Below are positions 3,567 to 22,217 of a stretch of DNA of 22,639 nt, piece by piece. The position numbers and the translations under genes are program-made. Positions within the stretch are counted from its first letter, which is position 1. Each line of letters opens with the position of its first letter. The stretch is from positions 1 to 22,639 of the IMG/VR virus record IMGVR_UViG_3300037104_000412. One strand, written 5' to 3'. The notes beneath the pieces were generated by a model. The model was not told the DNA's origin. It saw only the letters and a program-made list of their open reading frames with translations, and did no database searches. The DNA comes from a virus.

Positions 3567-4421
3567 TTAAATTATGTACCAACCTTTAAATGCTCCACTT
3601 TTTATTTTTCTCTTATTAGTATATGATTTTTGAAATATTGAAGATAAATTCATTTTTTTTAATTCGGCTTGAAGATTAATGCATTCAAATTTATATTTTA
3701 AATTATTATTTTCATCATATATTTCATAACATTTAATATTAAAACGATATTTATTTGATTCAATAATTTTATTAATAGTTTCTTCAGAATGTTTATACCA
3801 TTTACGACTTTCTATCATTTTTTCAATATGTTCCTTGGTTAATTTCCGTCCTAAACAATTTTTATTTCCTAAATGTGCTTCGCCTATTTTTCGTTTTTGC
3901 TCTTCAGTTGCTTTATATCCTTTATGAGAATCACTTAATTTTTGTCTATGTTCTTTCGTAAGTTTTTTACCAATATGTGTTATTCTTAACTTTTCTTTAG
4001 ATTCTTCAGAATGATGTTTGCCTAAAAACGACCTACTAGAATTTTCACTTAATTTTTTTCTTGTTTCTTCGGAACATACTCTAAGTTTACTTGCTGCTCC
4101 GATTTTTAATTTTGTTTCGTCAGACATTTTATAATGATCACCACCAGTTGTTAAATTTAATCCATGTTCGGTATTAAATGTATCATAAAGTTTAATATAA
4201 TATGCTTCTAAATCATTAAGTTCGGATTCTTGACATTCATGAATTAATTCAAATATATGTATATCCCAACCATATTTAATAATAGAATGGTATAATTTTT
4301 GTTGACATTTACATCTAGCGTTTTTATAATTAGTAATTCTTGATTTTATATTTGCCGATTGACCAATATAAATCTTGCCTGTTGGTGACGTTATTTTATA
4401 TATACCACAAATTTTATTCAT
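3567..4421 (-). CDS. GIY-YIG homing endonuclease with NUMOD3 repeats, 284 aa (copy 1)
   Basis: The N-terminal GIY-YIG nuclease domain (about residues 1-95) has GIY at 6-8, YIG at 18-20, the expected catalytic Arg28 and Glu72 (LNDLEAYYIKLYD), and the family motif GLNLTTGG. About six NUMOD3-like DNA-binding repeats follow, of the form S-E-E-T-x-x-K-I-x-x-x (residues 100-225). The C-terminal segment (KCYEIYDENNNLKYKFEC to AFKGWYII) looks like a NUMOD1/helix-turn-helix unit. Such enzymes cut a specific site in genomes lacking the element and spread by repair. It is free-standing, on the strand opposite its neighbours, and its ATG overlaps the 3' end of the 51-aa RHH gene by eight bases. Its stop abuts the helicase stop without a gap. 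Confidence 0.9.
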   Translation of the reverse strand: MNKICGIYKITSPTGKIYIGQSANIKSRITNYKNARCKCQQKLYHSIIKYGWDIHIFELIHECQESELNDLEAYYIKLYDTFNTEHGLNLTTGGDHYKMSDETKLKIGAASKLRVCSEETRKKLSENSSRSFLGKHHSEESKEKLRITHIGKKLTKEHRQKLSDSHKGYKATEEQKRKIGEAHLGNKNCLGRKLTKEHIEKMIESRKWYKHSEETINKIIESNKYRFNIKCYEIYDENNNLKYKFECINLQAELKKMNLSSIFQKSYTNKRKIKSGAFKGWYII

Positions 4422-5020: not shown

Positions 5021-5506
5021 ATGGAACGCATAACCGATAAATATGTCTTTTTTTGGGGGTCAGAATTCTCTAACTGGTTTGAGTGTAAATTTACATATAA
5101 AAATTTAACATTTTTTAACTCTGAACAGGCATTCATGTGGGAGAAAGCGATTTATTTTGGAGATACAGAAACTGCTGCATTAATTTTAAAAACACCTTCA
5201 CCTAACCAAAACAAAAAATTAGGTCGTAAAATTAAAAATTTTAAAACAGATGTATGGTTAAAAGAAGGTTATGCAATTATGATTGCTATTAATACGGCTA
5301 AGTTCAGTCAGAATTCAAAATTAAAGACAATTTTACTTTCTACTGAAAACAAGATTCTTGTTGAAGCCAGTCCTCATGATACAATCTGGGGTATTGGCTT
5401 ATATCATGAGGATGACAAGGTTCTGGACGAAAAAAATTGGAAAGGACAGAACCTTTTAGGCAAAGCATTAATGTGTGTGAGAGATGAGATTCGAAAAAAT
5501 CAATAA
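5021..5506 (+). CDS. NADAR-family protein (YbiA-like, DUF1768), 161 aa
   Basis: The length and motif order match the NADAR family: FWGSEFSNWFECKF at residues 11-24, FFNSEQAFMWEKA at 31-43, the A-x-x-I-L-x-T-x-x-P region, KKLGRKI at 66-71, VEASPHDTIWGIGL at 114-127 and NWKGQNLLGKALMCVR at 139-154. These include the conserved Ser-Glu-Gln-Ala and Glu-Ala-x-x-x-Asp elements. Family members hydrolyse N-glycosidic bonds: YbiA-type proteins act on riboflavin-pathway intermediates, and others remove ADP-ribose from guanine in DNA. In a phage the latter role would reverse DarT-type DNA ADP-ribosylation by the host; that is inference. The gene ends two bases before the convergent end of the second endonuclease. 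Confidence 0.85.
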   Translation: MERITDKYVFFWGSEFSNWFECKFTYKNLTFFNSEQAFMWEKAIYFGDTETAALILKTPSPNQNKKLGRKIKNFKTDVWLKEGYAIMIAINTAKFSQNSKLKTILLSTENKILVEASPHDTIWGIGLYHEDDKVLDEKNWKGQNLLGKALMCVRDEIRKNQ

Positions 5507-13605: not shown

Positions 13606-14169
13606 ATGAGTGAAATTATAGTTATACCAAATGAGCAGACTCCTAAAGTATCTGAGATAGGGGATATTGAATTGTTCTTTATTCAGAACATTAAACAACT
13701 TCAAGAATTCAAAGACTATGCATATACCAGATTTGATGCGGTGGGTATGGCAGCCAATCAATGTAGTCTTGATGGTGAAAGATTCATGGCAAGAGTCTTT
13801 GCACTTAAAGACACAGAAAAACATATTTGGAGATTAATCATTGACCCGCATATCACCGAATATATCGGCATTAAAGAAATCAAACGTGAAGGCTGTCTGA
13901 CATGGAAAGGTAAAGTAATTGTTGCTGAACGTAGCCGTGCAATAAGAGTCAATTATTTTGATGAAATCGGTCAAAGTATTAATAATGAATTACATTTTGG
14001 TTTTGAAGGGCAGATTTGGCAACATGAGATCAATCATTTAAATGGTGTTGAAGAACGCATTGAAGAACGTGATTTTATTGAACCAAAATCAATTAGTGTT
14101 GGTCGAAATGATAAATGCCCATGCAATTCTGGGAAAAAATACAAATATTGTTGTTTATTATATATTTAA
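13606..14169 (+). CDS. def: Peptide deformylase with C-terminal SEC-C motif, 187 aa
   Basis: The three deformylase motifs are present: VGMAANQ at residues 46-52 (G-x-G-x-A-A-x-Q, with the first Gly as Val), EGCLTW at 95-100 with metal ligand Cys97, and QHEINHLNG at 139-147 with His140, Glu141 and His144. The enzyme removes the formyl group from nascent proteins at the ribosome. Length to the end of the core, about 155 residues, is normal. The extra tail contains GRNDKCPCNSGKKYKYCC (166-183), a textbook SEC-C zinc motif like that at the end of SecA, with Cys171, 173, 182 and 183. This fusion is unusual; SEC-C may bind ribosome or SecB-like partners. The active site appears intact. Confidence 0.9.
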   Translation: MSEIIVIPNEQTPKVSEIGDIELFFIQNIKQLQEFKDYAYTRFDAVGMAANQCSLDGERFMARVFALKDTEKHIWRLIIDPHITEYIGIKEIKREGCLTWKGKVIVAERSRAIRVNYFDEIGQSINNELHFGFEGQIWQHEINHLNGVEERIEERDFIEPKSISVGRNDKCPCNSGKKYKYCCLLYI

Positions 14170-18885: not shown

Positions 18886-19134
18886 ATGGACAACAAAATA
18901 GCTGAATTAATTAATACTGGTTGGGATGTTAAATTTTCAAATCAAGTTAAGAGGATAGACAGTGAATTCGTTATCAGAACTTGTTGGAAAGCTGAATATG
19001 GTGACGAAAGATATGAATCTCAATGGGCAGGATTTAAAGATGCAAAATTATGCGTTAAAGATTTTATTAAAATTGCTGAAATAGCAATGAAAACTGAAGC
19101 AAAACTTAAAACTGAAAATCATGAAAAAAGATAA
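18886..19134 (+). CDS. Hypothetical protein, 82 aa
   Basis: Helix-strand protein with WKAEYGDERYESQWAGFKDA in the centre and a C-terminal Lys/Glu helix. It overlaps the next gene by 14 bases. No family recognised. Confidence 0.6.
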   Translation: MDNKIAELINTGWDVKFSNQVKRIDSEFVIRTCWKAEYGDERYESQWAGFKDAKLCVKDFIKIAEIAMKTEAKLKTENHEKR

Positions 19135-20236
19135 ATTAACTCTTGCAGAAAGAAGAAATCTTGCAAAACTCACTCTCCCAAACGGACCTGATGGTTGGAC
19201 TGGTATTATAAAAGGTACTCATAAAAAAGAAACTTATGATAAATTTGGTATACCAAATTTACGAAGTGAAGTAATTGATTATTTGACCCTGCATCCAATA
19301 ACCACAAAATATTTAGTAAAAACACATCCTGAATTATTGAGAAATGAAGTGTTTATCATTAATGTTAAAGAGAATGAAGATTGGGAAAATAAATTACCTG
19401 ATTTCATTGAATCAACAAGACGTGGTAATATTGCTTATACTTTAACTGGTGAAGTTGTACCAGAAATGAAACCTTTATTTGCAGTTCTAAAAGCAATCAG
19501 TAATACACGTGGAAATATTAAAATAGAAACAGGTGCAGGTGACTGGTTTCCAAAAGTTGCTGAAAAAGCACAACATGCTGCAAAACACATTATTAAAACA
19601 CATGGAAAAACTATTGCTGAATTCGATTTTAATGGCATTAAATGTGTGGTAGATAAAGATACAAATCTTGAATGGCTTGAAAGAGATTATCATAATGCTC
19701 ATATGATGGAGTGGAAACAAATCGGTCCTGAATGCTATCCTGTGTACGAACCTGAAGTTCAGGTAGAACTTGAAAGACGTGAAAAAGCACGTGAAGAAAA
19801 AGCTGAAGCTAATTCAATAGCATACAGGGCAAAAGAAGAGACAGAACGCAGACAGTTTGAAGAAAAGGTCAAAGGAATTGAAATTGAACTTATTGATAAA
19901 AAAGGTTGGGATGACTGGAAAGCCAATCAAAAGGATGATGGCTATGGTCTTGCAATTTTTGAATATGCCGAATTTTGGGCAAAAAGAATGCAGAAAGAAT
20001 TTGCAGATAGAAATATTGAAAATCCAGACGTTGCTTGTATGGTTGCCCATGCAGACAATTGTGCCAATGAACTCAATTTTCTTGGCATTACAGGATTCAT
20101 GTATGGTGCAGCAGTAGTAACACTTGCCAAATGCTGGAAACACGGTGAAGCACTCCGCAAGTGGCATAATAAAGAATGGGGTGTAGTGGGTGGTGAAGGT
20201 GTGGTTAATCCTGCAATGTTTACAATTGGAAAATGA
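19121..20236 (+). CDS. Large conserved phage protein of unknown function, 371 aa
   Basis: The third-longest predicted protein here, after the helicase and TnpB. The N-terminal half is globular, with an NGPDGWTGIIKGTH loop and mixed helices. A charged helical stretch follows at about residues 210-260 (Glu/Arg/Lys heptads, likely coiled coil). The C-terminal domain has a helical, Cys/His-bearing region (CMVAHADNCANELNFLGITG and CWKHGEALRKWHN) found in other phage proteins I recall only as uncharacterised. No catalytic motif is certain. No gene or terminator follows for about 75 bases, after which a new promoter appears. Confidence 0.65.
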   Translation: MKKDKLTLAERRNLAKLTLPNGPDGWTGIIKGTHKKETYDKFGIPNLRSEVIDYLTLHPITTKYLVKTHPELLRNEVFIINVKENEDWENKLPDFIESTRRGNIAYTLTGEVVPEMKPLFAVLKAISNTRGNIKIETGAGDWFPKVAEKAQHAAKHIIKTHGKTIAEFDFNGIKCVVDKDTNLEWLERDYHNAHMMEWKQIGPECYPVYEPEVQVELERREKAREEKAEANSIAYRAKEETERRQFEEKVKGIEIELIDKKGWDDWKANQKDDGYGLAIFEYAEFWAKRMQKEFADRNIENPDVACMVAHADNCANELNFLGITGFMYGAAVVTLAKCWKHGEALRKWHNKEWGVVGGEGVVNPAMFTIGK

Positions 20237-20249
20237 AAAATATTATTTG

Positions 20250-20280
20250 TTTGTTTTTTTAATTATTTAAATTATCTTTG
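20250..20280 (+). promoter_or_regulatory. Bacteroidota-type promoter, TTTG-N19-TATCTTTG, before tnpB
   Basis: TTTG at 20250-20253 (-33) and TATCTTTG at 20273-20280 (-7), 19 bases apart; both halves match the Bacteroidota consensus. It is the most complete host-type promoter of the window and drives the TnpB gene with a leader of about 25-30 bases. The leader contains a small inverted repeat (GTATTT...AAATAC) that may belong to the left end of the transposon. Confidence 0.75.
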
Positions 20281-20313
20281 TATTTATTAATGTAAGTAAA
20301 ATACATACTTTTT

Positions 20314-21618
20314 ATGTTAAAAGCAATTAAAATACAAATTTACCCCGATAATGACCAAAGAGTTTACATTGCTAAACTATTGGGTTCTTGTAGATTTGTT
20401 CATAATAATTGTCTTGCTTATAGAATTGATAAATATGATAATGAAAAAATTAATGTTGGATTTGCTGATTTGTGTAAATATCTCACTGAACTTAAGAAGA
20501 AAGAAGAATATTCTTGGTTAAAAAACAGCCATTCAAAGGTTTTACAACAAACACTAATTAATTTAGATTTAGCATATAAATCATTTTTTAGGAATGGTTA
20601 TGGCTTTCCTAAGTTCAAAGCAAAGCATGATAATAAACAATCATGTAGATTTCCTGTTGATGCTATTAGTAATGTTAATGGAAATAGAATTAATATAATT
20701 AAACAATTAAAAAATATTCATTATAAATGTAGCATTACTGATGAAAAATATCTTAATAAAAATCGAAATTTAATTAAATCAGCGACATTAAGTCGAACCA
20801 AGTCAAATAAATATTATTTTAGTATTTTAATAGATAAAAATAATAATAAACAATTGCCCAAAACCAATAAAATTATCGGCATTGATTTAGGAATCAAGGA
20901 TTTTATTGTTGATTCTAATTGTAATAAATTTGAAAATTTAAAATTAATTAGAAATAATAAAAAGAAGTTAGTAAAATTAAGTCGTCAGTTAAATAAAAAA
21001 CAGTTAATTGGAACTGGCGAATATAAAATTAATAAATATGACAAAGAAGTTGAAATTAAAACACCATCAAAGAATAGAGAAAAAGCAAGAATAAAACTTG
21101 CTAAATTCAATGAAAAATTAAATAATATTAAAGAAAATTATCTACATGAAATTACCAATCAATTACTTAACGAAAATCAAGTTATTGTAATGGAAAATCT
21201 TAATGTAAACGGCATGTTGAAAAACCATAATTTGGCACGTTCAATACAAGAATTAAGTCTAAATAGATTTAAAAATATGCTTACTTACAAGGCTAATTGG
21301 TATGGTAGAGAGATAATCGAGATTGATAGATTTTATCCTTCGAGTAAATTATGTTCAAATTGTGGTTATAAAAACAATAAATTAACATTAAATGATAGAT
21401 CATGGAAATGTCCTGTTTGTGGTGTTATTCATAATAGGGATTTAAATGCTGCAATTAATATCAAGAAAGAAGGACTAAGAATTTTATCAATTAAAGAAAA
21501 TAAAATAGGGTTGAGTTCACCCGAATTAACGCTTGAGGACTATCCAACTATGGATGACAAGGCAGAAATGCCCCTAAAAAGTAGTGATAGGATGAGACAA
21601 GAAAAAAATGAGTTTTAA
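20314..21618 (+). CDS. tnpB: TnpB, RNA-guided nuclease of the IS200/IS605 family, 434 aa
   Basis: N-terminal OrfB helix-turn-helix region (residues 1-60, with FVHNNCLAYR), then the RuvC-like nuclease: GIDLGIKDF at 189-197 with Asp191, VMENLNVNGM at 292-301 with Glu294, and a zinc ribbon C347-x-x-C350 ... C366-x-x-C369 followed by HNRDLNAA with Asp376. All three catalytic acids and four zinc cysteines are kept, so the enzyme is probably active. TnpB cuts DNA using an omega-RNA (right-end RNA) transcribed from the 3' end of its gene and beyond. No TnpA is present, so the element cannot move by itself. The C-terminal 45-residue tail covers the likely omega-RNA scaffold. Confidence 0.9.
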   Translation: MLKAIKIQIYPDNDQRVYIAKLLGSCRFVHNNCLAYRIDKYDNEKINVGFADLCKYLTELKKKEEYSWLKNSHSKVLQQTLINLDLAYKSFFRNGYGFPKFKAKHDNKQSCRFPVDAISNVNGNRINIIKQLKNIHYKCSITDEKYLNKNRNLIKSATLSRTKSNKYYFSILIDKNNNKQLPKTNKIIGIDLGIKDFIVDSNCNKFENLKLIRNNKKKLVKLSRQLNKKQLIGTGEYKINKYDKEVEIKTPSKNREKARIKLAKFNEKLNNIKENYLHEITNQLLNENQVIVMENLNVNGMLKNHNLARSIQELSLNRFKNMLTYKANWYGREIIEIDRFYPSSKLCSNCGYKNNKLTLNDRSWKCPVCGVIHNRDLNAAINIKKEGLRILSIKENKIGLSSPELTLEDYPTMDDKAEMPLKSSDRMRQEKNEF

Positions 21619-21640
21619 TAAATTTATTAAAATTCGGAAC
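21540..21640 (+). ncRNA. Probable omega-RNA (right-end RNA) scaffold region of TnpB
   Basis: In the IS200/IS605 family the guide RNA scaffold overlaps the last part of tnpB and ends at the transposon right end, with the guide taken from the flank. The last 80 bases of the gene and the about 20 bases after it are the corresponding region here. Exact ends, fold and expression cannot be fixed by eye; the coordinates are approximate. Confidence 0.35.
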
Positions 21641-21719
21641 TATCCTTCAAAAGAACCAAATCATTGTTGATGAGGGCGAAACATAATTTTCCTCTTAAAA
21701 GTCTTATAACTAAAGAAAT
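21641..21719 (+). pseudogene. Decayed fragment related to the adjacent 163-aa gene
   Basis: The stretch matches 21888-21966, inside the next gene, along its whole length: TATCCTTC-A/T-AAAGAACCAAATCAT, then GAAACAT, then AAAGTCTT, then TAAAGAA. In translation it keeps YPSKEPNH, and after a one-base insertion V-x-x-GET. The insertion and TAA in place of the Trp codon stop the frame. It therefore looks like the relic of a second copy of the neighbouring gene, beginning close to the right end of the TnpB element. The part corresponding to residues 1-54 is missing. Confidence 0.7.
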
Positions 21720-21725
21720 ATTAAT

Positions 21726-22217
21726 ATGAAAACTTTTGTAAAACCAGTCAAATTAATTCTTGGTCATGATTATGAAGTGGGATATAGTTTTGAAACTAAA
21801 GTTATTATGAGATTAATTCAGACCACACCCAAAGGTTATAAGTTTTTTAATATGAAAAACAACAAATGCTGGCGACAACCAATTATATATCCTTCTAAAG
21901 AACCAAATCATGTTGGTAAAGGAGAAACATGGTTCTTTGTCTCAGAAAGTCTTGTGGTTAAAGAAGTGTCTGAATCAAATACCGTTACTGAAGATTCAAA
22001 AATGAAAAAAGAACCACAAGAACTGAAAGTTTATAAGCATCAGGACTTAATGAAAGAACTGAATGATATGATGATAAGAATTAAAAGACATTTATATCAA
22101 TTACCTTCAATGGCAAGCGATGTAAGCGCAATACCAGAGAACGAAGAACTGGATACTCTCACTAATAAACTCATGGCTGTACTCCATGAAGACAGTGAAC
22201 CTATGATAAAATATTAA
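21726..22217 (+). CDS. Hypothetical protein, 163 aa
   Basis: N-terminal beta-rich domain (about residues 1-85) with GHDYEVGYSF, CWRQPIIYPSKEPNH and GETWFFVSESLVV, then a charged linker and a C-terminal helical segment (HQDLMKELNDMMIRIKRHL) with an acidic end. A broken copy of residues 55-83 lies just upstream. No family recognised; the beta domain could be an SH3- or OB-like binding unit. Confidence 0.6.
   Translation: MKTFVKPVKLILGHDYEVGYSFETKVIMRLIQTTPKGYKFFNMKNNKCWRQPIIYPSKEPNHVGKGETWFFVSESLVVKEVSESNTVTEDSKMKKEPQELKVYKHQDLMKELNDMMIRIKRHLYQLPSMASDVSAIPENEELDTLTNKLMAVLHEDSEPMIKY

Follow-up and report, generated by a model that had tools for sequence, protein, structure and literature searches.

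A phage TnpB without TnpA whose predicted guide copies part of the adjacent gene: a probable RNA-guided, intronless homing unit

The tnpB gene and its surroundings

The locus described here lies in IMG/VR virus record IMGVR_UViG_3300037104_000412, a fragment of a genome whose 22,639 bases (positions 1 to 22,639) were analysed in full and are referred to below as the window. On the plus strand, an uninterrupted open reading frame (20314–21618) encodes a TnpB of 434 amino acids, and shortly behind it lies an intact gene on the same strand (21726–22217, 163 amino acids) that has no confident relatives, none being found in IMG/VR or among phage records. The TnpB contains the Pfam domains HTH_OrfB_IS605, OrfB_IS605 and Cas12f1-like_TNB, and the structure match to ISDra2 TnpB (8bf8, E 1e-53) spans nearly the whole protein. 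Its RuvC residues D191, E294 and D376 and the zinc-finger cysteines are intact, as an earlier note on this DNA had stated for the catalytic residues, and both the acidic triad and the CxxC cysteine pairs are invariant in an alignment with five relatives that are 57–80% identical. The window TnpB shares with TldR that it is a phage-borne member of this lineage with an omega-RNA; however, TldR is a transcription factor descended from TnpB with an inactivated RuvC site, whereas all three RuvC acidic residues are present here.

The same note described the gene as lacking TnpA, and this is borne out for the 22.6-kb record, a fragment in which neither a Y1 TnpA nor a serine recombinase was found; TnpA is also absent from the Lak-B4 record, which is 550 kb long and was deposited as complete. 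The nearest TnpB relatives among phage records are those of the Prevotella Lak megaphages (about 47–55% identity), which carry up to five TnpB copies per genome. A conserved left end, as expected of an IS200/IS605 element, was not found within the window clade, where conservation covers the omega-RNA scaffold (z 26–64) but not the 80 nt upstream of tnpB (z at most 2.5). A left end is shared by three Lak copies (L006, L007 and L011), which indicates that its absence is a property of the window clade and not of all relatives.

Elsewhere in the window, the 371-residue product of a gene upstream of tnpB (19121–20236, plus strand) matches in its C-terminal part the type I Thoeris inhibitor Tad4 (PF25186, E 2e-27). 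Further genes on the plus strand encode a NADAR-domain protein (5021–5506) and a peptide deformylase with a SEC-C motif (13606–14169).

The omega-RNA, its guide and the relic

The omega-RNA scaffold (21502–21643, plus strand, the 5′ limit being approximate) overlaps the 3′ end of tnpB and has a conserved core and paired helices. An Rfam search returned no omega-RNA family match. The scaffold is conserved in Lak phages and in about 45 IMG/VR loci, where its motifs follow in the order GGGTTGAGTT..CCCGAATTWACGCTTG..CCAACTATGGATGA..CTAAAAAGTAG..GAAACAAGAAA, succeeded by a terminal hairpin and by seven final bases of the GAACTAT, GAACGGT, ATACTGT or ATACGGT type. In the window, the terminal AT hairpin occupies 21611–21635 and the scaffold ends in GAACTAT. 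Omega-RNAs of the same family are also found without a full tnpB in front of them (L142, L144, L145, L146 and G014:C1:62394-62510), some in genomes that have tnpB copies elsewhere, and it is possible that these provide guides in trans.

The plus-strand segments AGTTC (21514–21518) and GAACT (21637–21641) form the two strands of a covarying pseudoknot, which is followed by two spacer bases (AT) and then by the guide. Across 34 related loci the pairing survives changes on both strands, with 146 of 170 cells paired compared with 113 ± 4 (maximum 126) in shuffles. The ISDra2 omega-RNA structure has the same order, its pseudoknot ending just ahead of the guide (PMC10097598). Because the covariation puts the end of the scaffold at 21643, the guide, CCTTCAAAAGAACCAAATCA, is predicted to start at 21644 and occupies 21644–21663 on the plus strand. 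Guide starts at 21636 or 21641 were ruled out, since GAACTAT falls within the scaffold according to the pseudoknot and to the relatives L026, L028 and L073. The omega-RNA thus ends where the decayed copy of the neighbouring gene begins and, with this predicted start, the window guide is relic sequence, in agreement with the derivation proposed in the earlier note.

The relic itself (21644–21719, plus strand, 76 nt, including the guide) is a decayed copy of codons 56–81 of the intact gene. It agrees with 21888–21966 in 62 of 79 aligned columns, its local alignment score of 67 compares with a mean of 20 and a maximum of 34 in 2000 dinucleotide shuffles, and frameshifts and stops make it non-coding. 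The copy had previously been placed at 21641–21719 and assigned to codons 55–81; the relic is real, but TAT at 21641–21643 belongs to the omega-RNA scaffold and both limits are corrected to those given here. No relic of codons 1–54 was detected upstream of tnpB (20237–20313; score 33, shuffle mean 29).

The guide matches the intact gene at 19 of 20 positions (21891–21910, plus strand), with a mismatch at guide position 6, and this site, preceded by TTATATAT, is its sole match in the window at four or fewer mismatches. The expectation that the guide would match the intact paralogue in this phage or in rivals therefore stands for the phage itself, while IMG/VR yielded no sequence that matches the guide exactly. 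Since the neighbouring gene also has no relatives in IMG/VR or phage records, the presumed target, a phage or rival allele, is as yet unseen.

It is conceivable that the relic is only a scar, left where an IS605-type TnpB that had lost TnpA and its left end survived in a spare tandem duplicate of the gene, the guide now being functionless. As the right flank is always the source of a TnpB guide, target sequence is expected there after any insertion, and the frameshifts and stops of the window relic would fit such a passive history. Against this, the catalytic residues and the omega-RNA have been retained, and conservation is higher in the guide than in the remainder of the relic, the first 20 bases matching the intact gene at 19 of 20 positions compared with 40 of 56 in the rest (Fisher p 0.03). 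Taken with the evidence from relatives given below, we consider this explanation unlikely, although it deserves some weight. A different concern is that the duplication is a metagenomic misassembly, as the window and most of its relatives are metagenomic contigs. However, the two window copies differ at 17 columns of their alignment and the pattern is seen again in contigs independent of the window and in many assembled Lak genomes, and we regard such an artefact as extremely improbable.

Related loci and tnpB-less alleles

Recurrence of the layout was assessed at 78 distinct TnpB loci by comparing each right flank with its own left flank and downstream region, mismatched locus pairs serving as the null (mean 24, 99.9% point 51, maximum 85). 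The maximum null pair, L183 and L004, probably samples one Lak site twice. Because similarity of sequence guided the choice of loci, and some thresholds were set once the first examples had been seen, the recurrence count serves as a description and not as a pre-planned test.

The arrangement recurs beside related TnpBs, both in Lak megaphages and in IMG/VR contigs, where the omega-RNA is followed by sequence that duplicates the 3′ end of the intact gene alongside. Left-flank copies score 132, 85 and 82 in the Lak-B4 loci L003, L004 and L008, 64 in L110 and 51 in L230, and the copy in L195 is seen at the protein level (65; 99.9% point 58). The TnpBs of L110 and L109 are 69% and 79% identical to that of the window; L109, likewise compared at the protein level, is a weaker fit (ELYNKIINEVWL compared with NLYEDIINETWQ, each followed by a stop). 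The gene to the left of tnpB ends at its own stop in L109, L003, L004, L008 and L230 and, inside the first tnpB codons, in L110; the left gene of L195 was not traced as far as its stop.

Six of the ten closest loci show the pattern (the window, L109, L110, L003, L004 and L008) and four do not (L108, L006, L007 and L011), and a large, more distant rumen group is mostly without it. The several loci that lack the pattern are compatible with a passive scar, as is the occurrence of tandem paralogous genes beside TnpB at L181, L203 and L216. At these three loci tnpB adjoins tandem paralogous genes or gene pieces in an arrangement that differs from the relic pattern; together with L146 they were ruled out as instances of it, being tandem paralogous genes or domains, and the matches at L122 and L147 were dismissed as artefacts, the left boundary having been set in the wrong place. 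The intact copy lies downstream of tnpB in the window but upstream in the close relatives, which suggests that a single insertion mechanism may not cover all cases.

Phages without tnpB, whose existence the earlier note had considered informative, are found at the sites of relatives. At the Lak-B4 locus L003 (MK250023.1, around 515.2–516.6 kb), eight sister Lak-B genomes with flanks 99% identical lack that tnpB and hold the gene as a single copy (for two of them the full sequence was read), and the insertion is accompanied by an exact duplication of about 61 nt of the gene 3′ end on both sides. The absence of a duplication in these sisters argues against a passive scar in a spare gene copy. 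It also bears on the proposal that the element entered or replaced a duplicate of the gene: with eight sisters single-copy at this one site, entry into a duplicate becomes less likely as a general mechanism. L003 is an exception to the layout in that 65 nt of other sequence separate the omega-RNA from the duplicated gene end; this flank was rejected as a relic of its own gene, which it resembles no more than expected by chance (54 of 1000 shuffles reaching the score), and has no clear match elsewhere in phages.

At a second Lak-B4 locus, L004, the left gene and the displaced 3′ end share 17 codons and the stop, and the five changes between them are all synonymous (p about 1e-4). The gene at this site is uninterrupted in Lak-A1 and Lak-C1, where it has two mismatches to the first ten guide bases compared with three in the resident copy. 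The clearest example is the locus L230/L238 (IMG/VR 3300034082_001069), which has the guide ATGAGAGGTAATACAATATCACCATAA, and its resident copy reads ATGCGAGG... after ATTT, with a silent Arg change in the seed, one conservative amino-acid change (Y to F) and no TTAC. In contig 3300043466_003331 (L239), a record with no TnpB, the gene is uninterrupted and runs straight into the next gene, and TTAC is followed by ATGAGAGG..., a 27/27 match to the L230 guide. TTAC is the insertion motif of IS608, and the right end of the L230 TnpB (TTCAA) agrees with this. It is possible that TTAC is the TAM of the L230 TnpB; the motif was seen at the tnpB-less L239 allele, which belongs to another subfamily than the window TnpB, and the resident copies of the window clade gave no consensus for a common TAM. 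No tnpB-less alleles of L195 and L109 were found in phage records.

The mainly silent differences between the copies at L004 and L230, and the missing TTAC at the latter, also argue against a passive scar, the recoding argument being based on these two loci. The contrast expected between resident and tnpB-less copies agrees with the sequences at L230/L239 and partly at L004, and the window resident copy is one mismatch from its guide.

A possible homing cycle

We propose that the window locus is a TnpB and omega-RNA unit, devoid of TnpA and a left end, that probably acts as a free-standing (intronless) homing endonuclease. Its nuclease gene stands alone, outside any intron or intein and beside its putative target gene. 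TnpB is known to cut TAM-flanked DNA that matches the omega-RNA guide (PMC8612924), double mismatches within guide positions 1–12 abolish this cleavage (PMC10097598), and TnpB is able to drive an element through plasmids (PMC11870625), while phage homing endonucleases of the free-standing type cleave at sites away from their own gene and are passed on to more than their share of the progeny (PMC2988022). In combination, these findings make it most likely that the locus represents intronless homing directed by an RNA guide, with a resident copy that is protected.

For the window, sequence comparison leads us to infer cleavage, a TAM, spread by way of repair, and a resident gene that is protected. 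The unit would enter a gene and leave a piece of its target directly behind the omega-RNA, where this would serve as the guide, and the working gene would persist alongside as another copy, so diverged that its match to the guide and/or the TAM is no longer complete. When a related phage with an unmodified allele infects the same cell, TnpB would cut that allele, and repair by recombination would then copy tnpB and its flanks into the cut phage. The second gene copy may arise by template switching during repair or by recombination with a related allele. In the window, where one guide mismatch sets the resident copy apart and the clade gave no consensus TAM, self-protection is no more than a possibility, and this, the lack of an allele with an exact guide match, the downstream position of the intact copy, the 65-nt insert of L003 and the loci without the pattern count against a homing-type reading.

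The same anatomy could be expected if tnpB were kept as a weapon, with cutting of the homologous gene excluding co-infecting phages and the spread of tnpB being incidental. A precedent is viral interference by an intron-encoded homing endonuclease of phage PhiPA3 (PMC11620839). Sequence alone cannot tell such a weapon from homing; however, the presence and absence of tnpB among near-identical Lak-B genomes resembles a mobile unit and not a fixed weapon, and we regard exclusion as its main role as improbable.

A homing unit of the kind preferred here would combine features of several known systems. With ISDra2 and other IS200/IS605 TnpBs (PMC8612924, PMC10097598) it shares the RuvC and zinc-finger TnpB, the omega-RNA overlapping the tnpB 3′ end, the terminal pseudoknot and a guide copied from the right flank, but it differs in having no TnpA, in the left end that is not conserved in its clade, and in that the guide consists of a piece displaced from the neighbouring gene, which survives intact as a second copy. 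As with the free-standing homing endonucleases of T4-like phages (PMC2988022), a stand-alone nuclease lies beside a gene whose unmodified allele would be cut, and near-identical genomes occur with and without the nuclease. In those systems a protein DNA-binding domain sets the target, whereas here this would be done by a relic-derived RNA guide; the broken target piece lies beside the window nuclease and the resident copy can be recoded. In the TnpB gene drive of IS elements in plasmids (PMC11870625), the guide likewise records the insertion site and element-less copies are cut, but there a full IS with TnpA interrupts the site, whereas here a second, diverged copy keeps the gene working. Among the open-access papers searched, none mentions both 'TnpB' and 'intronless homing'.

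More tentatively, and with less than even confidence, we suggest that these phage TnpBs may be natural homing drives with a recoded rescue, in which the unit enters a gene that the phage needs, the displaced piece serves as the guide towards intact alleles in other phages, and silent changes and/or loss of the TAM protect the working copy. If true, this layout would be what gene-drive engineers design on purpose, and nature would itself have provided a gene drive whose rescue copy is recoded. It would also explain how, with no transposase, TnpB can persist in phages and spread, tie RNA-guided nucleases to the classical phage homing endonucleases, and give a rule for finding the target of a lone phage TnpB, namely to look at the next-door gene in related phages.

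The window also contains a GIY-YIG/NUMOD3 homing endonuclease gene (3567–4421, minus strand), so that, together with tnpB, this phage has both kinds of homing-type nuclease.
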